NCBI GenBank assembly: GCA_025463005.1
Contig: JAOAPR010000096.1
Location: forward strand, 1-64,000
Length of the DNA: 64,000 nt
Direction of reading: 5' to 3'
Source: Bryobacterales bacterium
GTDB lineage: Bacteria > Acidobacteriota > Terriglobia > Bryobacterales > Bryobacteraceae
In this document: positions 11,758-25,712 of the stretch, piece after piece
Layout of the letters: the number at the start of each line of letters is the position of its first letter
Position numbering within the stretch: position 1 is the stretch's first letter
The notes under the pieces: model-generated
The model's database searches: none
What the model was told of the DNA's origin: nothing
Seen by the model: the letters and a program-made list of their open reading frames with translations, nothing else
Made by a program: the position numbers and the translations under genes

Positions 11758-12186
11758 TTACCTGGCCCCGGATTCGACCGGAGCCCCCGTGCCGGACGAG
11801 CCCAGGAACAGCTTCTTTCCGTCGGGGTAAGTGATATTTGAGCCGTTGGCGCGATTTGAGCCGTCCTTGGCCTGGAAGCCGTCGACGGAGATCTTCTGGC
11901 CCTTTTCGAGCGAGTTCTTGGTGAACCCTCGCCGCAGGAGAATGTTGGGACTGCCGCCCTCCACCATCCAGCTGGTCACTTTACCATCGGGACCGGTGAC
12001 ATCGATATGGATCCAGGCATGGGGATTGATCCATTCCATCTGCGTGACCACGCCCTCCAGCTTGACCTGCTTCTTGGCGTCGTATTCGGCCGCGAAGGCG
12101 TGATGCGCCCGAAGCGGCGAAACGGCCATCAACACAGCCAGCAACAACCCAGCCGTGGAAACAGCAACTGAGAGAGCTTTTCGCAT
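11758..12186 (-). CDS. DUF6152 exported protein, copy 1
   Basis: The mature part begins right after the signal peptide with HHAFAAEYD, then KLEGVVTQMEWINPHAWIHI, VEGGSPN and DGKKLFLG, the pattern of DUF6152 (usually 110-155 residues). The function of the family is unknown. I start it at ATG 12186 (MRKALSVAV), which gives a normal signal peptide ending ...SPLRA; the open frame continues to 12309 but overlaps the upstream gene. It has 142 residues and no cysteine. The four histidines (two at the new N-terminus, one in NPHAW, one in WIHI) could bind a metal, which is inference. It is the last gene of a B-A-DUF6152 unit, 16 bases behind the A gene. Confidence 0.8.
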   Translation of the reverse strand: MRKALSVAVSTAGLLLAVLMAVSPLRAHHAFAAEYDAKKQVKLEGVVTQMEWINPHAWIHIDVTGPDGKVTSWMVEGGSPNILLRRGFTKNSLEKGQKISVDGFQAKDGSNRANGSNITYPDGKKLFLGSSGTGAPVESGAR

Positions 12187-12202
12187 CAGATGATCTCCTG
12201 TC

Positions 12203-13258
12203 CTACTTCTTCGCGGCCTTGGCGGCTTCCTCGGCGGCCTTCTCGTCGGCCCGAGCGCCTTTAAGCATGTTGAACATCGCGTAGTTGCCTTCGTGGCAGG
12301 CGTACTCATACAACGGGAATTCCGGATTCAGCCGTAGAGGCATCCTGATGGTCCACGGTTTGGTCCACGTCTTGGGATCGTCGATGGTGGCTTCGTAATT
12401 GATCATGTCGGGCGCCACGCGCGTCCACTTTTCGGTGAGAACCATATCGGCGCTGTGGGGAGTGCCCCCGCCGTTTAGCCCGATGCCGTTCTTGTCTCCC
12501 AGGAAATTGGTGGTTTGGATCACCAGCGTGTTGCCTTCCCAGTGGCCGCGCGCATCGCCCATGTAGGACTTGATGTTCGATCCCGGATGAGGGCGCCCAT
12601 CCAGCGGAATAATCTTGGTCTCGTGGATCATCTCGTAGCGGATTGCGACGTAGCCGGGGCCCTGCACGATCTGTGTGCCGTTGTTGTAGATCACCGGAAG
12701 AATCGATCCCATGACGCCACGCGAAATACAGCGGTCATAGAGGCTCTGGTCCTCCCACGTTTCGTTGGGACCATGCCCCTGCTTGGCCTGCTTGGCCTGC
12801 GCCGCCTTCTGCTTCGCCTGTTCGGTCAGCTCGGGGATTCTGCCGTTCGGCGGATCCACCACCAGTGACGTGATCTTCTGCGGCCGGCCGTGCTCCAGCC
12901 AGTACCCGGGAGGATTGATTCCGACTTTCGAGTCCTTGGCGACGTATTCAACCTTGTCGTTGGCCGCGGTGCGTTCCGCCTTGGCTTGGCGTTGGGCGAA
13001 CTCCTCTTCGGTGACCTCGATTCTTTCTCCCGCCTTGGGATCGCGCTGCAGCGGCACCTCGATCAGGTCCGTGCCCGGCCATAGGCCCTGTAGATCCGGA
13101 TCGCCCCAGGGTAGCTTGGGCGGTGTGTACGCGGCCTTCGTTGCTTTACTGGGGGCCTTCCCAGACGGCGCCTGGCCCACGATGGGAATCGTCGCCAGCA
13201 GCACGGAAACTAGCACCGCCGTCAAGACCATGAGAGACGTCAGGACGCGCTGCCTCAT
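12203..13258 (-). CDS. Exported type A protein of unknown function, copy 1
   Basis: I do not recognise a named domain. The 351-residue protein has a signal peptide (to about residue 28) and the shared type A motifs in order: PWGDPDLQGLWP, VVDPPNGRIPEL, DRCISRGV, EMIHETKIIPLDGRPH, YMGDARGHWEGNTLV, INYEATIDDPKTWTKPW, and LYEYACHEGNYAM near the end. It finishes with an Ala/Lys-rich tail. Only two cysteines remain in the mature chain (DRC and YAC). Of the five A proteins this is the most divergent in the N-terminal half. It sits 13 bases behind a type B gene and 16 before a DUF6152 gene, so the three are co-transcribed. Confidence 0.75.
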   Translation of the reverse strand: MRQRVLTSLMVLTAVLVSVLLATIPIVGQAPSGKAPSKATKAAYTPPKLPWGDPDLQGLWPGTDLIEVPLQRDPKAGERIEVTEEEFAQRQAKAERTAANDKVEYVAKDSKVGINPPGYWLEHGRPQKITSLVVDPPNGRIPELTEQAKQKAAQAKQAKQGHGPNETWEDQSLYDRCISRGVMGSILPVIYNNGTQIVQGPGYVAIRYEMIHETKIIPLDGRPHPGSNIKSYMGDARGHWEGNTLVIQTTNFLGDKNGIGLNGGGTPHSADMVLTEKWTRVAPDMINYEATIDDPKTWTKPWTIRMPLRLNPEFPLYEYACHEGNYAMFNMLKGARADEKAAEEAAKAAKK

Positions 13259-13271
13259 TCAGGTTCCCCTT

Positions 13272-14093
13272 TCACTTCGTCGGGGGCTGTTTCTTGTACT
13301 TTCCGTATAACAGCTCCTCGGCGAACTCCACGCACTTGAACTCCAGGATCTGGGCGTTCTTTTCAGCTCTCTTGTAGAGCGGCATGCTGATCTTCCAAGG
13401 CCTGGTGAAAACGCTCGCGTCTTCGATGGTGGCCTCGTAATTCATGACGTCGTTGCTGGTGCGGTTGTAACGCTCTACCACGTGCACCTTGTCGCTGGCG
13501 TAATTTCCCGCCCGATCGAACCACGCAAGTCCATTCAGTCCAGTGACATCCACCACCAGCGTATCGCCGTCCCAATGGCCATTCGACGTCCCCATCCAGG
13601 TGTCCGAGCCGGCTTCGACAGGTTTCCCCATGTTAATCAACCGGTTAGAGCTCGCAAACTCGTACGCCATCAGGATGTCCTTGTTGGACTGGATGATCTG
13701 AAACGGAAAGGGCATATAGTTGGCGCGCGGGATCCCCGGCATGTAGCACTTCGCTTCCGGATCCTCGGCCGGCCAATTAGCTTTGTTCTGCTTCTTCTTT
13801 TCGAGCGCCGCCGGCTTGTAGGGAATCTCATTCCCTTCGACCACGCCCTGGCCGGCAGGAATCGCTCCAATTGCTCCGAGCTGCCAGAACGGAGTGGCGG
13901 TTGGAGAATGGTCCTGGAGGTCCCAATTGGCGGTATTATTAGCCTGCCAGACGCCGTTCAGGTTGGGCTTGCCGTCGGCCATCCGGGGACCCTTGTAGGC
14001 CGTCTGCGCCTGGGCTTCATTGGGAGTCATCATCAAGGAAAAACAGACGGCCGCAGCGGCGACCATCGAGAGAAGACTAAGAGGTTTGTGCAT
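13272..14093 (-). CDS. Exported type B protein of unknown function, copy 1
   Basis: Type B is a shorter relative of type A. It keeps DGKPNLNGVWQ at the N-terminus, AKCYMPGIPR, WMGTSNGHWDGDTLVVDV, MNYEATIEDASVFTRPW and a cysteine near the end (LEFKCVEFAEELLYG), but it lacks the EMIH...GRPH segment of type A. I start it at ATG 14093 (MHKPLSLLSM), which begins a signal peptide ending near EAQAQ; this gives 273 residues, two cysteines in the mature part and one in the signal peptide. It opens a B-A-DUF6152 unit. The function is unknown. Confidence 0.75.
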   Translation of the reverse strand: MHKPLSLLSMVAAAAVCFSLMMTPNEAQAQTAYKGPRMADGKPNLNGVWQANNTANWDLQDHSPTATPFWQLGAIGAIPAGQGVVEGNEIPYKPAALEKKKQNKANWPAEDPEAKCYMPGIPRANYMPFPFQIIQSNKDILMAYEFASSNRLINMGKPVEAGSDTWMGTSNGHWDGDTLVVDVTGLNGLAWFDRAGNYASDKVHVVERYNRTSNDVMNYEATIEDASVFTRPWKISMPLYKRAEKNAQILEFKCVEFAEELLYGKYKKQPPTK

Positions 14094-14232
14094 ATAGGAA
14101 GTGTCCGTCGAGGCGCTGTACGCGCCGCCGGCTTTCAATCCTACATTCGAACGGACCCGGTGTCAATCGAGAAGAGCAACCGCTCGATGACTCTCGCGGC
14201 TCGGAAAACCGGAGGTGGATTTGTGGCGCACC

Positions 14233-15042
14233 TTATGGTGCTGCGACTTCCTTCTTTGCAGGGTTCAGCAGTTCGTCCAGAATCTCCGTAAACGCGTTCA
14301 ACGGCTGCGCCCCGCTCAAGAGCTTTACGGCTTTGAGTTTACTGGGATCCTTATCGTCGGGATACCCGAAGTAAAACATGGGCGTTCCGCTCACCTTCAG
14401 TTTGGTTCCGTCGGCAACATCTCCGATCACTTTGGCGGCAAATTTCCCGGAGTCAAAGCATTGCTGAAACTTGGCTTGATCCAGTCCCAAGGCTACGGCA
14501 TGGCCTGGCATTTCCTTGACGTCCAGCGCCTGCTGGTTCTTGAAAAGCCGCTCGTGCATTTCCCAGTACCTGCCCTGATCGCCTGCGCATTCCGCTGCCT
14601 CCGCGGCCTTCTCAGCCAGCGGGTGGAGCTGCTGGATTGGGAAATTACGTAAGGCATACCGCACCTTGCCGGTCTTCACGTAACTGTCGATCAGTTTCGA
14701 AAAGGTGTCGTTGGCATAACGCCCGCAGTAGGGGCACTGGTAATCGGAAAACTCCACCAACAGCACTTTTGCCTTCGTGTCGCCAAGAGAATGCGCTCCC
14801 GCAGTGCTGATGTAGACATCCTCCATCGGGGGCTGCTTGCCCATCAGGATGTCCTTGACTACCTGGAGAGTCTTCTGCATCTCTACTTGGCTGGCTCTGA
14901 GAGCCTCCATATCTTTGCGGAGGGCGCGTAATTCCTCGTCGGCGGATTGGCCGAAAGCTGGGGAAATAGCCAGAGTTCCGGCGAGCAGAACAGCCATGGC
15001 CACGGGCTTCACGAAACCACTATAATTCGAGATCACCAGCAT
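14233..15042 (-). CDS. DsbA-like periplasmic thiol oxidoreductase
   Basis: The protein has a signal peptide, a charged coiled-coil segment (about 34-67) and a thioredoxin domain of the DsbA/Thioredoxin_4 type. The active site is CPYC at 103-106 (FSDYQCPYCGRY), and SGTPMFYF is the cis-proline loop. Enzymes of this form introduce or rearrange disulfides in exported proteins. GGAGG at about 15045 favours ATG 15042 or the GTG two codons later; the open frame to 15198 would overlap the upstream gene. It lies among genes for exported proteins that each carry two conserved cysteines, which makes them plausible substrates. Confidence 0.85.
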   Translation of the reverse strand: MLVISNYSGFVKPVAMAVLLAGTLAISPAFGQSADEELRALRKDMEALRASQVEMQKTLQVVKDILMGKQPPMEDVYISTAGAHSLGDTKAKVLLVEFSDYQCPYCGRYANDTFSKLIDSYVKTGKVRYALRNFPIQQLHPLAEKAAEAAECAGDQGRYWEMHERLFKNQQALDVKEMPGHAVALGLDQAKFQQCFDSGKFAAKVIGDVADGTKLKVSGTPMFYFGYPDDKDPSKLKAVKLLSGAQPLNAFTEILDELLNPAKKEVAAP

Positions 15043-15076
15043 TCCTCCAGACAGAGCGAGATCAGCGCGAATGAAC

Positions 15077-15112
15077 AAGCTCCTCTTCCGCGGGACGGCA
15101 GGAGAGGAGCTT
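15077..15112 (-). terminator. Perfect 10-base-pair hairpin between two minus-strand genes
   Basis: AAGCTCCTCT (15077-15086) pairs exactly with AGAGGAGCTT (15103-15112) around a 16-base loop. It lies in the 92-base gap between the HYR protein gene and the DsbA-like gene. On the minus strand TTGTTCATT follows, a poor T-tract. It may be a weak terminator or an mRNA-stability element. Confidence 0.45.
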
Positions 15113-15134
15113 ATTGCGGTTGTATCCAGACGGC

Positions 15135-17345
15135 CTAATGCGCCGGCGCCGAAACGCTGACCTGAGCAGCGGTGCTTGTACCGTGAGCGGTCGTGCACGC
15201 CACCGAGACCACATACGTGAGGGTGTGGCCGCCGTTACCGTTCGCCTGCAAGCTCAGGGTCAATGGCCCGGTAATGTTGTACATGCTGGGATTGATCGGA
15301 ACGTTGGCCGTGACCCCCGTAATCGAGCACACCGGGGCCGGGTCGCACGGGTCGGTATCCTTCACCGTGATGACTACCGGATCCAGCTTTTTGTTCGGCG
15401 GCGTGAGGACGTTCGGAAACGCGACCACCGACGCGATCGTTGGAGCCACGTCCTGGACCGTCACATGCGTTGTACACGCGTTCGTATTCCCCGAGCCGTC
15501 GGTAGCCGTACAGGTAACCGACGTTGTACCGAATCCGAAAGTCGATCCGGAGGGCGGCGCGCAACTGGCCGTTACCGCGGGGCAATTGTCGGAGAAGGTT
15601 GGAGTGATCGTTGCGGCCGCGCCGCTCGGACTGGTGCACTTCACAGTTTGGTCCAGCGGGCAACTGATGTTCGGATTCTGTTTGTCTTGAACCGTGACCG
15701 TGGCCGGGCAGGATGCACTCGCGTGGTCCGGGCTAGTGTCAGTAGCGGTTAGGATCACATTCGTGGTTCCCAGCGTGTATGGACCGGCAGGCGACTGGTT
15801 CAGCGTGATGCTCTCGCCGTCAGGATCGACCGAACCACTATTGACGGATGCGTTCGCGGTGCTACACAGATTATTGTCGGTGTTCACGATAACGTTCTTG
15901 CACAACGCCGAAGGCGGAACGCCCACCGTCCCCGTAATGCTTGCAAAGGCGGTTGTCGACGCTGTTGCGCAGCTTGTGTTTGCGGGCGCACAGGGGGTTT
16001 CATCGGTATCGACCACCAGGGTGTCCCCGGGGCTTCCAAACGGCGAACCCGATGCCGGGGCGAATCGCACGTTCGCAGTGAGGTCTTCCGAGCTGTGGAG
16101 CGTGGACGCAGTCGGTTGGCCGTTCAGCAGGCTATAGTAAGTCGGCGAAGTTCCTAGCAGCCTTATGTTGAGAATATTTAGATCGCCCTGCCCATTATTA
16201 TGGATTAGCGAGCCCTTCTGGGCCGATGTGCCGGCGTCCACCTCTCCGAACGCCAGGGTCCCAGGGTTTCCAGCAAGAGGCGCGGGGCCGTAGCGCTTGG
16301 TGCACGCAGTGACGTCATTGCTGAACTCCTCCTGAATCTTGAACCGATTTCCGTTCAGCACCATGTTGGTTCCGTCGGGCGCGAGATAGCCATAAATGAA
16401 ATTGCACTTATCGCCGATCTCATCATCGCCCCCGCCCGTTCCTGTCCATGCATCTAAGTGCGGGTCAGTGTTCGATTCGATCATTTCATGCGACACTTCC
16501 CCGAGGACGACGTCCACGGCTTGGCTATTGGGGTAACCCAGGTTTACAATCGCCGCGGAGGGGTAGCAACTGCCGTTCGACGCGAATGGCTGAAAAGCAT
16601 AGATCTTGTTGCCGCCGAAAAAGCTGTGGTAGGCGCAAAATACACCCGCTTGATTGGTCCCCACTCCTCCAGTGATAGCGAAGCAATTCCAGGTAACTCC
16701 GTCTTTTTGGAGGCCACTGCATTCACCGACGTCGGAGGGCGTAAACACAAAATATTCCACGTTAATCCCGGCCGCGGTCCACGCCGGATTTGCCGCAATT
16801 GCGACATTCACTTCGTTCTGAATGTCACCATCGGTGAGCGGACAGTTCGGCGTGCTCCCCACTGTACCCGTAGCGGTACCGTTGCACCCCGAAGGCGGGG
16901 CAGTGGTTGTATCCGTATAAGACGGCGCACCGAGTGATGCCGCATTCGGGACGGGAACGCCGGTTGTATCGCCATATTGCGTGACGATGTTGTAATATGG
17001 CGTTCCGCCCACGTTCTGGAAGAACTTCTCGACTCCAGCCTGATAGCCGGCCGGGAACGCCAGTCTGCCCGGCGGCTGCCAAAAGATCAGGTAATTGGTT
17101 GGGTTCCGCATTACGGGACCATGACTACTGCTGTAGGCCAAATTGGTGCCGGTAACAGCGAAACCCACCGCCGCCTGTTCAGCGCGATGTTGTGCTTCCG
17201 CGGGACCAGAGAACAAGTAGTGAATCTTGTTGCCTTTCGGGCTTAAGGTCTCGTGACCAAGCCCTTTAGAGGATGAGTTTGATTGTTGCCCCCATCCGAC
17301 AGCAGCTGCGCACAGGATAACCGCGGTTGCGGTTATGGTTTTCAT
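15135..17345 (-). CDS. Large secreted protein with choice-of-anchor and HYR domains
   Basis: The 736-residue protein starts with a signal peptide (MKTITATAVILCAAAVGWGQ). The first half (about 60-350) has the segment GEVSHEMIESNTDP followed by GGGDDEIGDKC, which looks like a zinc-peptidase-type helix (HExxE) with further acidic ligands, though I cannot assign a peptidase family. Residues of about 360-480 read as a choice-of-anchor D domain (GTLAFGEVDAGTS). Two HYR/Ig-like repeats follow (TVTVQDKQNPNISCP, THVTVQDVAP), and there is a final beta-rich part. Many cysteines are present, so disulfides are likely and the neighbouring DsbA-like enzyme may serve it. A 241-base AT-rich gap upstream probably holds its promoter. 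The function is unknown. Confidence 0.7.
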   Translation of the reverse strand: MKTITATAVILCAAAVGWGQQSNSSSKGLGHETLSPKGNKIHYLFSGPAEAQHRAEQAAVGFAVTGTNLAYSSSHGPVMRNPTNYLIFWQPPGRLAFPAGYQAGVEKFFQNVGGTPYYNIVTQYGDTTGVPVPNAASLGAPSYTDTTTAPPSGCNGTATGTVGSTPNCPLTDGDIQNEVNVAIAANPAWTAAGINVEYFVFTPSDVGECSGLQKDGVTWNCFAITGGVGTNQAGVFCAYHSFFGGNKIYAFQPFASNGSCYPSAAIVNLGYPNSQAVDVVLGEVSHEMIESNTDPHLDAWTGTGGGDDEIGDKCNFIYGYLAPDGTNMVLNGNRFKIQEEFSNDVTACTKRYGPAPLAGNPGTLAFGEVDAGTSAQKGSLIHNNGQGDLNILNIRLLGTSPTYYSLLNGQPTASTLHSSEDLTANVRFAPASGSPFGSPGDTLVVDTDETPCAPANTSCATASTTAFASITGTVGVPPSALCKNVIVNTDNNLCSTANASVNSGSVDPDGESITLNQSPAGPYTLGTTNVILTATDTSPDHASASCPATVTVQDKQNPNISCPLDQTVKCTSPSGAAATITPTFSDNCPAVTASCAPPSGSTFGFGTTSVTCTATDGSGNTNACTTHVTVQDVAPTIASVVAFPNVLTPPNKKLDPVVITVKDTDPCDPAPVCSITGVTANVPINPSMYNITGPLTLSLQANGNGGHTLTYVVSVACTTAHGTSTAAQVSVSAPAH

Positions 17346-17586
17346 ATATTGAATGGTCCCTTCGTTTTGCCGAAACGCCGATTTGGCGGGAAGAGTTCAC
17401 ATTGTACACCTACTTTCAATTTCTAAAAAGAATAATCTACTAGTACTCGCTTTTGGGATCTATAGATTTGTAATCCTTTAGTGACATGAAGAACGTGATT
17501 ACGCCGACCTCACCTCGCAGTTGAGCGCTGTGAGCGATTTGCCCTTTTAGAGTCGCTGCGTTTCAGGTGTTGGGGAAATGCAGGTG
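17346..17586 (-). promoter_or_regulatory. AT-rich gap, probable promoter region of the HYR protein gene
   Basis: These 241 bases break the array of exported-protein genes and are clearly richer in A and T than their surroundings. On the minus strand TACAAT stands about 55 bases before the start of the HYR gene and could be a -10 box; no good -35 hexamer is found at the right distance. Confidence 0.3.
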
Positions 17587-18528
17587 CTACTTGCCGGCGG
17601 ACTTCTTCTCGTCCGCCCGGGCGCCGGCCAGCATGCCTTCCATCGCGTAGTTGCCCTCGTTGCAGGCGTACTCGATGATAGGTCCTTCGGTCCTCTTCAT
17701 GGGAATCTGCCCGGTCCAGGGCTTGGTGAACGCCGAAGGATCATCCACTGTGAACTCGTACGTGATGGTATCGGGTGCGGTGCGCGTGAAGCGCTCCACC
17801 AGTCGCATGTTCTGACTGGCCCGCTGGAACCGTGTTTTATCGTTGAAGTTGGTGGTTTCAACCACCAGCGTATTGCCTTCCCAGTGGCCGCGCGAATCGC
17901 CCATCCATTGCCGGACATTCGCAGGCACATGGGGACGCCCATCGATCGGGATGATGCGGGCGTCGTGAATCATTTCCACCAGAATCGTCACGTAACCGGG
18001 CGCCTGCACGATCTGGTAATTGTTGTTGTAGAAACTCGGCATCATCGGCGGCCCGGCGGTGGGCCACAGGATGCAGCGCTCGGGCAACGATCGGTCTTCC
18101 GGCCCCTCGGGCGGCCTCCCAAACCCGACTGGCGCGGCAGCCGCACCCTGCTGTGCTTTCCTTGGAATGCGGCCGTCGGACGGGTCGATGATCAACGACG
18201 TTCGCAGCGTTTCAATGACCTTGGTTCCGCGGTCGTACCACGCGTCGTTATAGGCGCGGTTGAGGTCGGCCTGCGCGCCACCGTCGCGGCGATCGGCATT
18301 GTTGCGGTCTACCGTATCCTTTTCGTACTGGCGTGCTTCCGCCGGAGTAAAAAACTCCTTGCCGGCGAGATTGGCGGGGCGCTCGAGCGGTGTGATCGTG
18401 ATATTAGTCCAGACGCCCTGGAGATCGGGTTGGCCGTCGGGCGTGCGCGGTGGCGTGTAGCTCTTCGTCTGGCCAGCTACCGTGCCTGCCAGAATCGCAG
18501 TGGCCAGCGCGAGAACTCTACAGCTCAT
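17587..18528 (-). CDS. Exported type A protein, copy 2
   Basis: At 313 residues this is the shortest type A protein. It has a signal peptide (with a cysteine at position 3 that is removed), then PRTPDGQPDLQGVWTN, TITPLERPANLAGKEFFTP, a charged middle, PERCILW, EMIHDARIIPIDGRPH, WMGDSRGHWEGNTLVVE, DTITYEFTVDDPSAFTKPW and IEYACNEGNYAMEG. The mature chain has exactly two cysteines. Its ATG overlaps the stop of the DUF6152 gene before it (ATGA, 18525-18528), so translation is coupled. It is the last gene of the right-hand array. The function is unknown. Confidence 0.8.
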   Translation of the reverse strand: MSCRVLALATAILAGTVAGQTKSYTPPRTPDGQPDLQGVWTNITITPLERPANLAGKEFFTPAEARQYEKDTVDRNNADRRDGGAQADLNRAYNDAWYDRGTKVIETLRTSLIIDPSDGRIPRKAQQGAAAAPVGFGRPPEGPEDRSLPERCILWPTAGPPMMPSFYNNNYQIVQAPGYVTILVEMIHDARIIPIDGRPHVPANVRQWMGDSRGHWEGNTLVVETTNFNDKTRFQRASQNMRLVERFTRTAPDTITYEFTVDDPSAFTKPWTGQIPMKRTEGPIIEYACNEGNYAMEGMLAGARADEKKSAGK

Positions 18529-18935
18529 TTCGCGTTAGGCTGTTCGTCCGGATTCGATCCGCCCACGAACAACTTCTTCCCGTCGGCGAACGTGATATCG
18601 CGGCCATTGGCGCGATTAGAGCCGTCCTTGGCCTGATAGCCGTCGACCGAAATCTCGGTTCCCTGGGGCAGAGCGTCCTTGGTTACGCCGCGGCGGAACA
18701 GGGCGTTAGGGCTGCCGCCTTCCACCATCCAGCGGGTAACCTTGCCGTCCGAATCCTTCACATCCATATGAATCCAGGAATGCGGGTTAATGAACTCCAC
18801 CTTGGCGACGGTGCCCTTCAACTTCACCGGCTTTTGCGCATCGAATTCCGCAGCAAAGGCGTGGTGCGCCCAAACGGGCGCTGCAGCCAGAAGCAGACCG
18901 GCGATACCCAACACCACCGCTAGTTTTGCACGCAT
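18525..18935 (-). CDS. DUF6152 exported protein, copy 2
   Basis: A 136-residue protein, cut to ATG 18935 (MRAKLAVVLG) from an open frame reaching 19004. The predicted signal peptide ends ...AAPVWA and the mature chain starts HHAFAAEFD. It carries VEFINPHSWIHMDV, VEGGSPN and DGKKLFVGG and no cysteine. It lies 34 bases behind one type A gene and overlaps the next by four bases. The very close match to copy 3 suggests recent duplication. Confidence 0.8.
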   Translation of the reverse strand: MRAKLAVVLGIAGLLLAAAPVWAHHAFAAEFDAQKPVKLKGTVAKVEFINPHSWIHMDVKDSDGKVTRWMVEGGSPNALFRRGVTKDALPQGTEISVDGYQAKDGSNRANGRDITFADGKKLFVGGSNPDEQPNAK

Positions 18936-18969
18936 AAGATTTCTCTCCTTCGCACTTTCAACAATCCTA

Positions 18970-19977
18970 CTACTTTTGGCCTTTTGCCGCTCTCTTCTCG
19001 GCATCCTTCTTTTCCTCGGAGCGAGCCGCTGAAAGAAGACCTGTCATCCCGTAGTTCCCCTCATTGCAAGCGTACTCGAGGATCGGCCCGGTTGTTCTGA
19101 CACTGGGAATGGCTGCGCTCCAGGGCCTGGTGAACGATTCTGGATCGTCGACCGTGAATTCGTACAGCAGCGTTTCCGCATCCATCCGCGTGAAGCGTTC
19201 CGTCAGGTGCAGATTCTCTCCGGATCCTCTGAAGGGCGTCTGGCCTGTGAAATTCGTGGTGTCGATCACCAGGCTGTTGCCGTCCCAGTGGCCGCGCGAA
19301 TCTCCCATCCAGAGCCGGATGCTGTTAGGCGCATGCGGACGGCCGTCCAGCGGTATGACGCGCGCATCATGGATCATTTCATTCAGAATCACGAAGGTTT
19401 GGGCCGTCTGGACCACCTGATAATTATTGTTGTAGGCGCTGGGCATCATGGGCGGTCCGGCGCTGTTCAACAAGATACACCGTTCCATCAAAGGACGGTC
19501 TTCCGGACCATCGGCCGGATGTAATCTTCTGGCCTCTTTCACCTGAGCGGCGCGCTTCTGAGCCAAGGGTGTCAGCGCGGGAACGTGGCCATCGGGAGGA
19601 TCAGTCACCAATGACGTGCGAAGAGTCTTGACGATACCGGTTCCACGGTCCCACCAAAAATCGTTGTAAGCGCGCGCCACATCGGCGTCCGTGCCCGCGC
19701 CGTCGCGCCGATCTTTGTTGCCCTGTTCGATCATCCGCTTGACGTAGGCGGCGGCTTCCTCTTTGGTGAAGAACTCCTTATCCTTGAGATCCGCGGGGCG
19801 TTCCAAAGGTGTGAGAATGGCGTTCGACCAGATCCCTTGAAAATCCGGCTGCCCGTCGGGCGTGCGCGATGGAGTATAGCTCTTCGTAGTCGCCGGCTTC
19901 GACGGCCCCGTTTGGCTCGCGGCAAACACGGCGGCCAGCAACATCGCGGCGATCATGGCAACAATTCTGCGTTTCAT
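18970..19977 (-). CDS. Exported type A protein, copy 3
   Basis: This 335-residue paralogue resembles copies 2 and 4 most. Its signal peptide ends near AVFAASQ. The motifs are SRTPDGQPDFQGIWSN, ILTPLERPADLKDKEFFTK, VTDPPDGHVPALTPLAQKR, MERCILLNSAGPP, EMIHDARVIPLDGRPH, WMGDSRGHWDGNSLVID, YEFTVDDPESFTRPW and LEYACNEGNYGMTG, followed by a Lys/Ala-rich tail. Two cysteines occur in the mature part. It overlaps copy 4 by four bases at its 5' end. Confidence 0.8.
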   Translation of the reverse strand: MKRRIVAMIAAMLLAAVFAASQTGPSKPATTKSYTPSRTPDGQPDFQGIWSNAILTPLERPADLKDKEFFTKEEAAAYVKRMIEQGNKDRRDGAGTDADVARAYNDFWWDRGTGIVKTLRTSLVTDPPDGHVPALTPLAQKRAAQVKEARRLHPADGPEDRPLMERCILLNSAGPPMMPSAYNNNYQVVQTAQTFVILNEMIHDARVIPLDGRPHAPNSIRLWMGDSRGHWDGNSLVIDTTNFTGQTPFRGSGENLHLTERFTRMDAETLLYEFTVDDPESFTRPWSAAIPSVRTTGPILEYACNEGNYGMTGLLSAARSEEKKDAEKRAAKGQK

Positions 19978-20984
19978 TTTGCCCCTTTCTTTGCCGCTGC
20001 GTCGGCGGCCTTTTTTTCGGCGTTTTTTTCGTCCGCTCGAGCCCCACCCAACAGACCCAGCATCGCGTAGTTGCCCTCATTACAGGCGTACTCGAAGATC
20101 GGACTATCCATTCTGGTCATGGGCATCTCCACCGACCAAGGCTTGCTGAACGTGGCCGGGTCATCGACCCGGAATTGATAGTTGATAGTATCCGGTCCGG
20201 TGCGGGTGAAGCGTTCCACCAGGTGAAGGCCCGTGCTCGATCCGCGGAAACTGCTTTTTTCAGAGAAATTGGTGGAGTCGACCACCAGCGTATCGCCCTC
20301 CCAGTGACCACGCGGATCTCCTAGCCACTGACGAACATTCTGTTCGACATGCGCGCGGCTGTCCAATGGAACCACGCGGGCTTCGTGAATCATCTCGTTA
20401 AAGATGACCACGTACCCAGGAGCCTGAATAATCTGAAAATCATTGTTGTAAGGACCCGGGATCATCGGCACGCCGCGGGTAAGGCAGCGCTCCCACAGGT
20501 TCCGGTCTTCGGGTCCGTCGGAGGGATGGAGACGCTGATACGCGCGCGCATCGGATTGCTTTTTCTGAGCATCCGCGGTCAGCTCGGGAACTTTTCCATC
20601 GGGCGGATCGGTAATGAGCGAGGTTCTACGGTTCGCGACGACCTTGGTTCCCCGGTCGCGCCAGAATTCGTTGTATGACCGGCCGACGTCCACTTCCGGG
20701 CCGCCATCGCGGCGTTCGCTGTTGATCTGCGCGAACGCGCGCTTCTCAAAATCCTGCGCTTCCTGGTCGTTTAAGAAGAACTGCTTGCCGGCAAGCTCGG
20801 CGGGTCGCTCCAGGGGAGTGATGGTGGCGTTGGTCCAGACGCCTTGCAGATCCGGCTGGCCGTCGGCGGTACGTGGAAGAGCCCACGATTTCGATGAAGT
20901 CTGGCCTTTGGCCGCGGTTTGACCGGAGGCAGGTCCCGACGCTAACAGTCCAATGGCGATGGCCAATGCCAGCGCACGCATCAT
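19974..20984 (-). CDS. Exported type A protein, copy 4
   Basis: A 336-residue protein with signal peptide (MMRALALAIAIGLLASGPASGQ) and the type A motif series: PRTADGQPDLQGVWTN, TITPLERPAELAGKQFFLN, ITDPPDGKVPELTADAQK, WERCLTRGVP, EMIHEARVVPLDSRAH, WLGDPRGHWEGDTLVVD, INYQFRVDDPATFSKPW and FEYACNEGNYAM. It departs from the others in DSRAH for DGRPH. Mature cysteines are again two. The long Ala/Lys tail (ending KKGAK) is probably disordered. It follows a DUF6152 gene by 36 bases. Confidence 0.8.
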   Translation of the reverse strand: MMRALALAIAIGLLASGPASGQTAAKGQTSSKSWALPRTADGQPDLQGVWTNATITPLERPAELAGKQFFLNDQEAQDFEKRAFAQINSERRDGGPEVDVGRSYNEFWRDRGTKVVANRRTSLITDPPDGKVPELTADAQKKQSDARAYQRLHPSDGPEDRNLWERCLTRGVPMIPGPYNNDFQIIQAPGYVVIFNEMIHEARVVPLDSRAHVEQNVRQWLGDPRGHWEGDTLVVDSTNFSEKSSFRGSSTGLHLVERFTRTGPDTINYQFRVDDPATFSKPWSVEMPMTRMDSPIFEYACNEGNYAMLGLLGGARADEKNAEKKAADAAAKKGAK

Positions 20985-21020
20985 CGTAACCTCCGCCGGG
21001 CCTCCGCCGGATAAGATGAG

Positions 21021-21437
21021 TTACTGCTTACCGTCGCCGTTTGCGCCGGGAGCCGAACCGCCCATGAACAGGCGCTTGCCGTCCTTGGCGTACGTGAGAT
21101 TAGCGCCCACCGCCCGATCCGCGCCATCCTTGGCGCGGTAACCCTCGACGATGATCTCGGTTCCTTCCGGGAGCGATTCTTTGCTGAAGCCGTTGCGGAA
21201 CAGCGAATTGGGGCTGCCGCCTTCGACCATCCACTTGGTCACTTTACCATCGGGACTCTTGACGTCCAGATGGATCCAGGAGTGGGGATTCACCAGCTCC
21301 CATTTGGTGACCACTCCCTGCAGCTTGAGCGGCTTTTTCTCGTCGAATTCGGCCGCGAAGGCGTGATGCGCCCAAACAGGCGCTACGGCGAGGAGCATCC
21401 CCGCGCCAGCAAGAACAAGGGCCAGCTTTGTCCTCAT
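21021..21437 (-). CDS. DUF6152 exported protein, copy 3
   Basis: A 138-residue protein beginning MRTKLALVLAGAG. The signal peptide ends ...APVWA and the mature chain begins HHAFAAEFDEKKPLK. It has WELVNPHSWIHLDV, VEGGSPN and GKRLFMGG. No cysteine is present. It completes the right-hand B-A-DUF6152 unit, 12 bases behind the type A gene. Confidence 0.85.
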   Translation of the reverse strand: MRTKLALVLAGAGMLLAVAPVWAHHAFAAEFDEKKPLKLQGVVTKWELVNPHSWIHLDVKSPDGKVTKWMVEGGSPNSLFRNGFSKESLPEGTEIIVEGYRAKDGADRAVGANLTYAKDGKRLFMGGSAPGANGDGKQ

Positions 21438-21449
21438 CGAATTGCTCCT

Positions 21450-22481
21450 TTACTTCTTCTCGGTGGCGCGAGCGCCGCTGAGGTTGTTGGCCATGCCGTA
21501 ATTGCCTTCATGGCAGGCGTACTCGTAGACATGGCCATCGATCTTGACCATGTTGTACTCGCCGGAGAACGGCTTCACCCAAGTCTTGGGATCGTCGACC
21601 GTGAATTGATATTGGACCGTGTCGGCGTCGATGCGTGTGAAGCGCTCCGTGACCTTCGCGGCGTCGCTCACCTGCGCGCCCTGGATCGAAACCTGAGGAT
21701 TGTAGTTAATGGTTTCCACCACCAGCGTGTCGCCTTCCCAGTGGCCGCGGGAATCGCCCATCCACTGCCTGACTTCGGCCGGCGCATGTGGACGGCCATC
21801 GGTCGGGATGATGCGGGTGTCATGAATCATTTCCTGAACGATCGCGACGTATCCCTGACCCTGCACGATCTGCAGCGTTGAGTTGTAGCCTACCGGCATC
21901 ATCGGAGGCCCTTCAAATCCCCAGGTGATGCAGCGCTCGGCGAGCGGGCGCGTTTCGGGGCCGTCCCATTGGTGCACCTGCTGGAACGTACGGCGGTCGG
22001 CGGCGCGTTTCGCCGCTTCCGGTGTTAATGCAGGCACCCGGCCTTCGGGCCCGCTGATGATGGAGGTCCGCAGGCTTGCGGCCCTCTTTACTGTGGGTCC
22101 GCCCAGGCCGAACTGGCTGGTGTCGTAGTGAACGGCGAGCCCGTTGCCCTCTGGGTCGGCTGCAGCTGCGGGGCGCGCGGCGCCTCCACGTCCGCCTCTT
22201 CCACCGCCAGCCGGCGCCGCTTGCGCGGAGGCTGTCCGATCGGCTTCATCGTTGTAGAATTCTTTTGCACCCAGGTTCGCAGGCCGAGCAACTGGAATGG
22301 TCTGGGCGTTCGAATACACACCCTGCAGATCCGGCTTGCCATCCGGAGTCCGCGGCATAGTCCAGCCCTTGGCAGCCGGCGCCGGCTTTGCGGTTACCTG
22401 GGATTGCGCTGAGATGCGTGCCGACACAAACAATACGACGGCGACGAGAGCAATTAGCGAAGTGAGAATTTGTCGTCTCAT
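21450..22481 (-). CDS. Exported type A protein, copy 5
   Basis: The 343-residue protein has a signal peptide ending near SARISAQ. After PRTPDGKPDLQGVYSN and TIPVARPANLGAKEFYN it carries a Gly/Ala/Arg-rich insertion (about residues 90-110) that the other copies lack. The usual C-terminal half follows: AERCITWGFEGPP, EMIHDTRIIPTDGRPH, WMGDSRGHWEGDTLVVE, VQYQFTVDDPKTWVKPF and YEYACHEGNYGM. Two cysteines are present in the mature chain. Its start overlaps the stop of the type B gene by four bases (ATGA). Confidence 0.8.
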   Translation of the reverse strand: MRRQILTSLIALVAVVLFVSARISAQSQVTAKPAPAAKGWTMPRTPDGKPDLQGVYSNAQTIPVARPANLGAKEFYNDEADRTASAQAAPAGGGRGGRGGAARPAAAADPEGNGLAVHYDTSQFGLGGPTVKRAASLRTSIISGPEGRVPALTPEAAKRAADRRTFQQVHQWDGPETRPLAERCITWGFEGPPMMPVGYNSTLQIVQGQGYVAIVQEMIHDTRIIPTDGRPHAPAEVRQWMGDSRGHWEGDTLVVETINYNPQVSIQGAQVSDAAKVTERFTRIDADTVQYQFTVDDPKTWVKPFSGEYNMVKIDGHVYEYACHEGNYGMANNLSGARATEKK

Positions 22482-23314
22482 TTACTGTCTCCTTTTCCTT
22501 GCGTCGGCTGCTTTCGAAGGTGTCCGTACAGCACCTCTTCGGCGAACTCCACACACTTATATTCGAGAATCTGCGCGTTCTTTTCCAATCGCCGGTAGAG
22601 CGGCATGCTCATCTTCCATTGGCGGCTGAACACCTTAGGATCGTCAATGGTGGCCTCATACTGCAGCGCGTCCGGTCCGACCGCAGTATAGCGCTCGATG
22701 ACGTGCAGCGCATCGCTGTGCCAGTTACCGGCGCGGTCGAACCAGGTCTGATCGTTGAGGCTGGTGACGTCCACTACCAGCGATTCTCCGTCCCAGCGCC
22801 CGTTCGACCATCCCATCCAGCTATCGGCCGGGGCCTTGGTGGGCGCACCCATATTAATAACGCGCACCGCACCGGCATATTCGTACACAATCATCATGGT
22901 GCCGGTACCCTGGACGATCTGGAACGGATACGGCATGTAGGTAGAGCGGGGAACTCCGCCCATGTAGCACTTGACCTCAGGGTCCAGCTTCAGGCGGTTG
23001 GTGTAGTTTTCCTTCTGTTTAGCGGCGGCTTCAGGCTTATAGGGGATCTCGTTGCCCTCGACTACGCCCAGTCCGGCTGGCGCCGAATAGGCCGCGCCCA
23101 GCGAATAAACCGGTCCCTGCGAAGCAGCATGCGGGCGGATGTCCCAATTGGCCTCATTCATGGCCTGCCAGATGCCGTTCAGGTTGGGCTTTCCGTCCTT
23201 AGTACGGGGAGCTTTGTAGGCGGGAGCCTGCGCGGAGGTGGGCATCACAGCTAAGGAAAACAGCGATGCTCCAGCAACGGCAACCACCAACCAATTTCCC
23301 AACCGACTCTGCAT
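22478..23314 (-). CDS. Exported type B protein, copy 2
   Basis: A 278-residue protein, started at ATG 23314 (MQSRLGNWLVV) rather than at 23374, because the signal peptide (ending PTSAQ) begins there. By eye more than half its residues match type B copy 1: DGKPNLNGIWQ, GVVEGNEIPYKP, VKCYMGGVPR, WMGWSNGRWDGESLVVDV, LQYEATIDDPKVFSRQW and LEYKCVEFAEEVLYG. Two cysteines. It is the first gene of the leftward array; its promoter must lie in the 115 bases shared with the divergent copper ATPase gene. Confidence 0.75.
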   Translation of the reverse strand: MQSRLGNWLVVAVAGASLFSLAVMPTSAQAPAYKAPRTKDGKPNLNGIWQAMNEANWDIRPHAASQGPVYSLGAAYSAPAGLGVVEGNEIPYKPEAAAKQKENYTNRLKLDPEVKCYMGGVPRSTYMPYPFQIVQGTGTMMIVYEYAGAVRVINMGAPTKAPADSWMGWSNGRWDGESLVVDVTSLNDQTWFDRAGNWHSDALHVIERYTAVGPDALQYEATIDDPKVFSRQWKMSMPLYRRLEKNAQILEYKCVEFAEEVLYGHLRKQPTQGKGDSK

Positions 23315-23429
23315 CGTAGCAGTCTCCTCTCGGCCCGCCGCGCGGCGGGTACACGGCCGGAATTGATCGTACATTCAAACAAATACGAAGTCAAGGCAGC
23401 CGTGAGAACATCAAATAGGAGCGGCCGTC

Positions 23430-25712
23430 GTGAGTACGATCAACCCATTCCAGATCCATCCCGTCTCGTCCGGACCTAGACTTAAGGACCCGGTTTGTGG
23501 CATGGAGGTTACTCCAGACAAGGCCGCCGGGAGCTTCAAATACAAGGGGCAGACCTATTATTTCTGCGCCCAGAGCTGTCTGGCCAAGTTTCAGGCCGAT
23601 CCGGAGAAGTATCTCGCCCCGAAACCCCTCGCGACGCCTCCTTCAGACGCACAAAAGGATGTAGAGTACACCTGCCCGATGCATCCCGAGGTGGTCCAGA
23701 TGGGGCCGGGAAGCTGCCCGATCTGCGGCATGGCTCTGGAACCCAAAGAGATCCAGGCGGGTGAAACGGCAAACCCCGAGCTTGTCGACATGCAGAGGCG
23801 GTTCTGGGTCAGCGCGGCCTTGACGATCCCGGTCTTGCTGATCGCAATGGTCCCGCTGCTGCCGGCCCGAATTACGACTTGGCTCGAACTGGTTTTATCG
23901 ACCCCCGTCGTCCTATGGGGCGGATGGCCGTTTTTCGTGCGCGCCTGGCAATCACTGGTGAACCGCAACCTTAATATGTTCACGCTGATCGGCCTAGGCG
24001 TCGGCGCGGCATACATCTTCAGCCTGGTAGCCACGTTTTTGCCCCCGCTTCCGGTCTATTTCGAACCAGCCGCGGTGATCGTGACGCTGGTGCTGCTGGG
24101 CCAGGTCCTGGAACTGAAAGCTCGCGGCCGGACGGGAGCCGCTATCAAAGCGTTGCTCGGCCTGGCGCCCAAGACTGCGCGAGTGGTCAGGCCGGACGGG
24201 ACTGAAACCGATGTGCCCCTCGATCAGATCCATCCGGGGGATCTGCTGCGCGTGCGGCCCGGCGAAAAGATCCCAGTCGACGGTGTGGTGGTGGAGGGGG
24301 CGAGCGCGGTCGATGAATCGATGCTCACCGGCGAACCCATACCAGTCGAAAAAACGCCGGGCGACAAAGTCATTGGTGCGACGGTGAACAGCAATGGATC
24401 GCTGATCATCAGGGCCCAGCGCGTCGGAGCGGAAACATTGCTGGCGCAGATCGTGCGCATGGTGGCGGAGGCGCAGCGTAGCCGCGCGCCCATTCAGAAG
24501 CTCGCCGATCAGGTGGCCGCGTATTTCGTTCCGGCGGTGGTCGGGATCGCGATTTTGACGTTTCTTGGCTGGAGCTTGTGGGGACCTCCGCCGCGTCTTG
24601 CGCACGCGCTGGTGAATGCGGTCGCGGTTTTGATCATTGCGTGCCCCTGCGCCCTGGGACTTGCGACACCCATGTCGATCATGGTCGCGATGGGCAGAGG
24701 CGCAACCATGGGCGTTCTGTTCAAGAACGCCGAGGCGATCGAGCTCCTATATAAGGTCGACACTCTGGTGGTCGACAAGACCGGCACACTCACCGAAGGC
24801 AAGCCGACACTGCTGACTGTCGAGCCGGCCCCTGGTTTCGACGAGCAGCGCCTCCTCTATATGGCGGCCAGCCTGGAACGGGCCAGCGAACATCCGCTGG
24901 CGCATGCTGTGGTGACTGGCGCTCAGGAGCGCGGTGTCTCTTCGGGTTCCGCGGACCAATTTCAGGCGGTTCCCGGCAAGGGAGTCCTGGCACGTGTGGA
25001 CGGCATCGAAATCGCGGTGGGGAATCTCGCGATGATGCAAGAGGTCGGCGTAGACGTGGGCGATCTGCTGCCGCGCGTCAACGTGATGCGGGCCGAGGGG
25101 CAGACCGTTCTGTTCGTGGCCATGGGAGGAAAAATCGCGGGATTCCTGGGTGTAGCCGATCCCATCAAGGCGACGACCCCGGAAGCCATCCGGCAACTAC
25201 AGATCGAAGGTATGCGGATCGTGATGCTGACAGGAGACAGCCGCACCACAGGCGAGGCTGTGGCGAAGAAGCTGGGGATCGATGAGGTCGTGGCCGAAGT
25301 ATTGCCGCATGAGAAACGCCGACATATCCAGCGGCTTCAGGAATCCGGCCGGTTCGTGGCCATGGCGGGTGACGGGATCAATGACGCTCCGGCGCTGGCG
25401 CAGGCCCAGGTCGGGATCGCAATGGGAACGGGAGCGGATATCGCCATCGAAAGCGCTGACGTCACGCTGGTCCAAGGGGATCTGCGCGGTATCGTGCGGG
25501 CGCGCCGGCTCAGTCGGGCGACCATGGGCAACATCAAGCAAAACCTTTTCTTCGCCTTTGTCTACAATTCCCTGGGCGTGCCGATCGCAGCGGGGGTGCT
25601 GTATCCCGTGTTCGGGCTGCTACTTAGCCCCATGATCGCTGCAGCCGCGATGAGCTTCAGTTCGGTTTCGGTGATCAGCAACTCCTTGAGATTGCGGACG
25701 ATCCACCTCTGA
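23430..25712 (+). CDS. copA: Copper-exporting P1B-type ATPase
   Basis: The 760-residue pump starts at GTG 23430 behind AGGAG. Instead of an HMA domain it has a YHS metal-binding domain (about 19-62, DPVCGMEV and FCAQSC) and a heavy-metal-binding motif TCPMHPE...CPICGM (81-101). Eight membrane helices follow. CPC at 405-407 is the transmembrane metal site, DKTGT at 449-453 holds the phosphorylated Asp, TGEP is at 300-303, ASEHPLAH is the nucleotide-domain motif, and GDGIND closes the P domain. The YN in helix 7 and MSFSSVSV in helix 8 are typical of Cu+ pumps (P1B-1). It shares a 115-base divergent region with the exported-protein array. Confidence 0.9.

Follow-up and report, generated by a model that had tools for sequence, protein, structure and literature searches.

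Copper proteins with a histidine brace include the lytic polysaccharide monooxygenases (LPMOs), CopC, and PmoB, and the fold of LPMOs and CopC is a beta-sandwich. The copper chaperone CusF has an oligonucleotide/oligosaccharide-binding (OB) fold, with His, Met, Met, and Trp ligands inside the barrel. An N-terminal His-His pair could bind a metal in two modes: the amine, His1, and another His may form a brace, or the amine, the amide, and His2 may form an Xaa-His chelate. The histidine brace is defined in the accessible text of PMC10952591, and that of PMC12537917 describes signal-strapping metalloproteins with an N-terminal His, namely DUF4198, DUF6702, Ang-1, and Ang-2, for which metal binding was measured. 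Here, we analyzed the DUF6152 proteins (PF19649) encoded in a 64,000-nucleotide stretch of a Bryobacterales bacterium (assembly GCA_025463005.1, contig JAOAPR010000096.1, positions 1 to 64,000), hereafter called the window. Its three DUF6152 copies belong to a family of secreted proteins that extends well beyond the window; after cleavage of the signal peptide, these proteins are predicted to begin with His-His (HH), and these two residues are kept or lost together with a third histidine.

The full-length open reading frames (ORFs) of the three copies, all on the minus strand, span positions 11758-12309, 18525-19004, and 21021-21437, and all three score above the curated PF19649 cut-off of 27 bits. 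The ATG starts used here (Table 1) were our choice and were counted by hand; they give signal peptides of 27, 23, and 23 residues ending in LRA, VWA, and VWA, respectively. In every copy, the motif HHAFAAE(Y/F)D directly follows this AxA-like end, as the initial annotation of this DNA had claimed. Across the family, we examined 127 distinct N-termini, and in 126 of them the residues directly before HH obeyed the (−3,−1) rule for signal peptidase, with Ala at −1 in 125 and Pro at −4 in 100. By this rule, His is thus placed at mature position 1 with a free amine in 126/127 cases; His occupies that position in 2.6% of signal-peptide proteins, a figure given in the accessible text of PMC12537917. 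The only serious rival site, five residues further in, obeyed the rule in 107/127 N-termini and would discard the conserved histidines.

We aligned 158 distinct DUF6152 domains, comprising 57 from the genome that carries the window (the source genome), 31 from named Acidobacteriota contigs, 61 from other Acidobacteriota genomes, and 9 from sphingomonad plasmids. The fetched loci were not a random sample but consisted of best matches, regions around genes for DUF6644 membrane proteins, and long open frames and low-scoring copies, the latter two picked to find fusions and variants. One domain (L124), which is cut at a contig end before the N-terminus, was left out of the co-loss count. Among the 157 scorable domains, His1, His2, and His29 (of NPH) were all present in 152, all absent from 5, and mixed in 0. 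The 152 include L096, in which the alignment puts the His of QANH in the His29 column, although a regular expression scored it as HH without PH. Within the HH-bearing domains, position 8 is F or Y in 151/152 and D9 is present in 140/152. The initial annotation had taken both histidines of NPH(A/S)WIH as fixed. This holds for the NPH His, found in 152/152, but not for the WIH His (His33), found in 62/152. Similarly, the proposed metal site made from His1 and the inner histidines stands insofar as HH lies at the mature N-terminus and is coupled to the NPH His, but not as a four-histidine site, which is rejected because WIH is not conserved.

The five His-free domains fall into two clades (support of 0.93 and 1.0) in a tree from which the three His columns had been left out; the clade uniting both groups has 117 members and a support of 0.16. 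Three of the five belong to a clade of fusion proteins and retain N27, P28, W46, and E49, indicating that the loss of the histidines was independent of the fold, and in the other two, W46 and E49 are gone too. The simplest reading of the alignment is that His1, His2, and His29 serve one function and vanish when it goes. This all-or-nothing pattern, of a kind that no static model could supply, argues most strongly for a single site made by all three, which would most simply be a metal site. As a separate observation, the frames of the two distant His-free proteins (L197 and L198) have a cysteine close to their hydrophobic start and are perhaps lipoproteins.

DUF6152 genes are accompanied by genes for a second protein of about 290 to 350 residues, here called the partner, of which seven copies lie in the window and for which no Pfam or NCBIfam family was matched. 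In the source genome, a partner match lies within 1.5 kb of 42/57 DUF6152 copies, 39 of them on the same strand, versus about 7.5% expected from density. The distances within the two families also correlate across cognate pairs (Mantel r of 0.52, 40 pairs), and they do so after removal of the window copies (r of 0.51, 37 pairs); in each case, 0/2000 permutations were as high. At least one partner is shared by two DUF6152 genes. Furthermore, 11 distinct ORFs from five genomes are fusions with DUF6152 at the N-terminal and the barrel at the C-terminal end; nine of them group in one clade, the remaining two pair up elsewhere in the tree, and 8/11 retain HH at the front. A tblastn search of 72,556 plasmids with either protein retrieved the same six sphingomonad records, and both genes occur together in all five plasmid regions fetched from these. 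By comparison, 20 arbitrary contig starts (159,575 bases) contained 0 DUF6152 genes and 1 partner gene. On this sequence evidence, DUF6152 is one part of a gene set with the barrel partner and, at some loci, DUF6644, a set that the initial annotation had not recognized.

Structure prediction was carried out for both proteins. From 27 aligned mature sequences, AlphaFold2 gave a model of DUF6152 copy 3 with a mean predicted local distance difference test score (pLDDT) of 86.1. Its best structural match was PriB (4apv; Z-score of 9.6, root-mean-square deviation [rmsd] of 2.2 over 81 residues), and Foldseek returned single-stranded DNA-binding (SSB) proteins and the anticodon (OB) domains of lysyl-tRNA synthetase (LysRS). 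DUF6152 is thus predicted to be a five-strand OB-fold, the fold of the best among the matches listed. The barrel begins at about residue 11, which would put HH on an N-terminal extension, and His29 opens strand 2, right after the turn that joins it to strand 1. The partner model (mean pLDDT of 73.7) matched NanoLuc (8bo9; Z-score of 10.7) and the fatty acid-binding protein (FABP) FABP5 (4azq; Z-score of 10.5, rmsd of 3.1 over 115 residues), and secretory abundant heat-soluble (SAHS) and retinol-binding proteins led its Foldseek matches. In 35 aligned partner sequences, a GxW motif lies near the N-terminus (G38 invariant, W40 in at least 90%) and two cysteines are invariant. The model suggests an eight-strand up-and-down calycin barrel, and the partner is predicted to be located in the periplasm, to contain a disulfide, and to take up a lipophilic ligand in its barrel. 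Searching solved structures by sequence gave no convincing relative of DUF6152 or of the partner.

DUF6644 proteins form a third, less regular member of the set. Among 19 regions fetched around DUF6644 genes in other genomes, 13 contain DUF6152, and 11 of these 13 also contain the partner; DUF6644 is mostly present as a tandem pair in these regions and was found in 4/5 fetched plasmid regions. A crude count over 66 distinct sequences gave four hydrophobic helices in 27, three in 22, five in 10, and fewer in 7. A His in the first helix is present in 64/64 sequences that cover it, and 28/66 have another His in helix three, often in one member of a pair. A role of DUF6644 in haem-b or metal is a guess.

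The set is strongly multiplied where it occurs. The source genome (6.36 Mb, 96% complete) contains 57 DUF6152 matches, at least 133 partner places (one query, with 150/173 candidates scored), and 12 DUF6644 places, so that DUF6152 and partner together occupy at least 190 places; a profile search returned 194 partner pieces, with many cases in which a single gene gave two pieces. Within the same family, three more genomes (G270, G231, and G187) carry 46, 51, and 49 DUF6152 copies, while 77/101 sampled family genomes carry none, making the expansion within the family very patchy (46 to 57 copies versus none). The median DUF6152 identity across 40 source-genome pairs is 41%, which argues that the multiplicity is not an assembly echo. 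Among 199 Acidobacteriota genomes, DUF6152 was found in 22, and DUF6644 scored above its cut-off in the same 22, with two further weak matches below it. The partner was found in the same 22 and in one more genome (G080, 75% complete).

Table 1. Features of the window and His-free DUF6152 proteins of other loci (locus names precede the colon)
Feature	Coordinates	Strand	Details
DUF6152 copy 1	11758..12186	−	PF19649, 119.2 bits; likely ATG 12186; signal peptide 12186-12106; His1 codon 12105-12103; His29 codon 12021-12019
Calycin-like partner, long form	12203..13258	−	Profile match, 1.6e-116; beside DUF6152 copy 1
Calycin-like partner, short form	13272..14138	−	Profile match, 9.3e-83
Calycin-like partner, long form (modelled)	17587..18528	−	Profile match; AlphaFold2 model; fold matches
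DUF6152 copy 2	18525..18935	−	PF19649, 115.6 bits; likely ATG 18935; His1 codon 18866-18864; His29 codon 18782-18780
Calycin-like partner, long form	18970..19977	−	Profile match; query matching at least 133 places in the source genome
Calycin-like partner, long form	19974..20984	−	Profile match; no Pfam family
DUF6152 copy 3 (modelled)	21021..21437	−	PF19649, 110.7 bits; likely ATG 21437; His1 codon 21368-21366; His29 codon 21284-21282
Calycin-like partner, long form	21450..22481	−	Profile match; no Pfam or NCBIfam family
Calycin-like partner, short form	22478..23374	−	Profile match; no Pfam family
Cu-type P-type ATPase	23430-25712	+	Divergent from the cassette; TIGR01511, 622 bits (cut-off 397)
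His-free DUF6152-partner fusion	L105:11178-12371	−	Keeps W46 and E49; beside another DUF6152 gene
His-free DUF6152-partner fusion	L186:1164-2333	+	Keeps W46 and E49; beside another DUF6152 gene
His-free DUF6152-partner fusion	L191:1084-2460	−	Keeps W46 and E49; beside another DUF6152 gene
Distant DUF6152-like protein without the three His	L197:710-1231	+	
Distant DUF6152-like protein without the three His	L198:642-1067	+	

Two further minus-strand genes lie inside the cassette array of the window. One (14233-15198) encodes a DsbA/thioredoxin-like secreted protein matching the Rcas_1661 family with 115.7 bits, under the model cut-off of 190; its target might be the invariant cysteine pair of the partners. 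The other (15135-17345), located between two cassettes, encodes a secreted protein of 736 residues whose match to a choice-of-anchor D domain (31.8 bits) is under the cut-off of 45. As for neighbors, we compared proteins of at least 200 amino acids within 2.5 kb of 40 cassette regions of the source genome with those from the 20 arbitrary contig starts. The family OMP_b-brl_4 accounted for 11/151 neighbors versus 2/104 control proteins, an enrichment that is no more than suggestive. The source-genome neighbors include outer-membrane barrels, pyrroloquinoline quinone (PQQ) dehydrogenases, a tannase/feruloyl esterase pair, and metallo-beta-lactamases, and in sphingomonads, genes for monooxygenases, TonB receptors, degradation, and beta-oxidation-type functions are found close to the loci. 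TonB receptors are present in two (L087 and L088) of the three annotated plasmid regions whose neighbors are more than hypothetical proteins. In L088, from a plasmid of Croceibacterium atlanticum, genes for two G8-domain proteins and a TonB receptor flank a pair of DUF6152 genes and a single partner gene.

Altogether, these results are probably best explained by a periplasmic N-terminal-His metalloprotein system that works with a lipophilic-ligand barrel. The position of HH, co-loss, linkage, co-occurrence, fusion, and correlated divergence behind this explanation come from sequence, and the folds are predicted; from them, we infer metal binding, ligand binding, and the role of the set. DUF6152 would be secreted to the periplasm as an OB-fold protein, where cleavage by signal peptidase would expose His1-His2 as the new N-terminus. 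His1, by both its side chain and its amine, would then join His2 and the loop residue His29 in one site, most likely for a transition metal, and metals other than copper remain candidates. The protein would act with the adjacent calycin-like barrel, which would hold a lipophilic small molecule, and at part of the loci, the DUF6644 pair, with its invariant first-helix His, may connect the site to the membrane. Our guess at the role, spread over some 50 paralogous cassettes, is metal-dependent oxidation or handling of lipophilic compounds. The neighboring monooxygenase, TonB, degradation, PQQ dehydrogenase, and esterase genes suggest this reading, and we regard such handling or oxidation in the periplasm as a reasonable though tentative possibility. 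A more specific version, which is speculative, is a new metalloenzyme system in which the His-His and loop-His OB protein docks on a substrate-presenting barrel and DUF6644 supplies electrons or metal, with about 50 cassettes, for as many substrates, in some soil Acidobacteriota; by analogy, and just as speculatively, the cassettes might then be an oxidative counterpart of multiplied polysaccharide-utilisation loci.

Several observations weigh against the periplasmic metalloprotein system. A blind rule that takes the first permissible cleavage site cuts exactly before HH in 55/128 N-termini, with no site in 6/128 and most of the others cut a few residues upstream. We judged this rule too crude, and it is unfit as a clean control because under it the distance from cleavage to motif in the partner scatters from 1 to 49 (n = 146). 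The co-loss of the three histidines amounts to two events, and its Fisher P value (1e-9) ignores kinship. Residues 1 to 3 of the DUF6152 model, which include His1 and His2, have a pLDDT under 50 and are unreliable. In the OB topology, moreover, strand 1 starts at one end of the barrel and the loop that follows this strand lies at another, and a His site within a monomer is therefore not assured. The fold matches are modest (Z-scores of 9.6 and 10.7 for DUF6152 and partner). Duplication of whole cassettes could give both the Mantel result and the linkage. DUF6644 does not regularly belong to the cassettes, given its 12 places versus 57 cassettes; apart from 9 of the 12, most source-genome cassettes have none alongside, and the window cassettes have none nearby. 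Finally, the copper-type ATPase, which the initial annotation took as support for a link to copper, is a real gene, but its association is local. It adjoins the cassette only in the window and in the syntenic relatives L031-L033, and it was not found in the flanks of some kilobases around 17 other named loci (0/17) and 40 other cassette regions of the source genome (0/40), which leaves the genomic argument for copper weak.

The main rival to lipophilic-compound handling is a non-catalytic carrier, in which DUF6152 and the barrel take a metal or metallophore chelate from a TonB-type receptor to the membrane. Many copies would fit many chelates, DUF4198 and DUF6702 bound metal with weak or no oxidase or peroxidase activity (accessible text of PMC12537917), and the OMP_b-brl_4 neighbors and the TonB receptors of L087 and L088 point the same way. 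On the other hand, no metal-transport or siderophore genes are among the top 25 neighbor families listed, and the monooxygenases and beta-oxidation-type genes of the sphingomonad loci fit catabolism better; we consider the carrier doubtful but worth serious attention. Alternatively, the histidines could have a structural role, or their ligand could be haem or an organic molecule instead of a transition metal ion, with the N-terminus kept for packing with the barrel. Haem-binding OB-folds such as CcmE exist, and the conservation of F8/Y and D9 shows that the whole N-terminal stretch is kept rather than HH alone. This is nevertheless unlikely, as exactly three His behave as all or nothing while W46, E49, N27, and P28 stay in the fusion-clade losers, and HH begins precisely where signal peptidase is predicted to cut, a position at which the freed amine would add a ligand.

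A copper homeostasis module acting with the neighboring ATPase gains from the divergent arrangement of the two and from its retention in the syntenic relatives, yet the absence of the ATPase from the flanks of the 17 other named loci and 40 other cassette regions makes it improbable, and 57 copies in a single genome are hard to square with homeostasis. That HH is a chance feature or the product of a wrong start codon might be suspected where full-length ORFs begin upstream of the likely start; its conservation in 152/157 domains refutes this and reduces the probability to a negligible level. The periplasmic N-terminal-His metalloprotein system thus remains the explanation that we favor.

N-terminal-His sites rank with the most reactive known for copper, and each new family has widened the known chemistry. 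DUF6152 combines a near-invariant His-His N-terminus on a predicted OB-fold with two unnamed or unstudied families that travel with it. The set represents a large, testable body of uncharacterised biology in abundant soil bacteria, for which the natural His-free and fused DUF6152 forms provide ready-made controls. In the open-licence literature, outside which preprints and most subscription journals lie, we found no paper that names DUF6152, DUF6644, or their Pfam numbers and none that joins "histidine brace" with "OB-fold"; the accessible text of PMC3174227, on Solibacter paralogues, holds nothing on the DUF6152 set.

Compared to known systems, DUF6152 resembles the signal-strapping families, as the accessible text of PMC12537917 presents them, in being secreted and bacterial, with a His after the signal peptide, further His residues, and a largely unknown function. 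Its His1 is present in 152/157 domains versus 79% for DUF4198 and 65% for DUF6702 (PMC12537917, accessible text). DUF6152 is not named in the main text of that paper (0 occurrences), and in a Pfam scan (E up to 1), DUF6152 was accompanied by a single chance-level match, with no DUF4198 or DUF6702. DUF6152 differs from these families in its invariant His2, in a predicted OB-fold rather than a beta-sandwich, and in the company of the barrel partner and DUF6644. With the histidine-brace proteins, it appears to share an N-terminal His after cleavage and a further conserved His, whereas its predicted OB-fold and extra His2 set it apart. Like CusF, it is predicted to be a small periplasmic OB-fold protein, but its ligand pattern would be N-terminal, while that of CusF lies inside the barrel; CusF was not among the Pfam matches or listed fold matches of DUF6152, which is not proof of absence. 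The partner, in turn, resembles calycins such as FABPs and lipocalins in its predicted eight-strand barrel and N-terminal GxW and departs from them in its two invariant cysteines, in a long insert that separates the GxW strand from the barrel, and in making up a separate class. Thus, N-terminal-His metalloproteins are already known, and what would be new here is the OB-fold, the double His, and the fixed protein partners.

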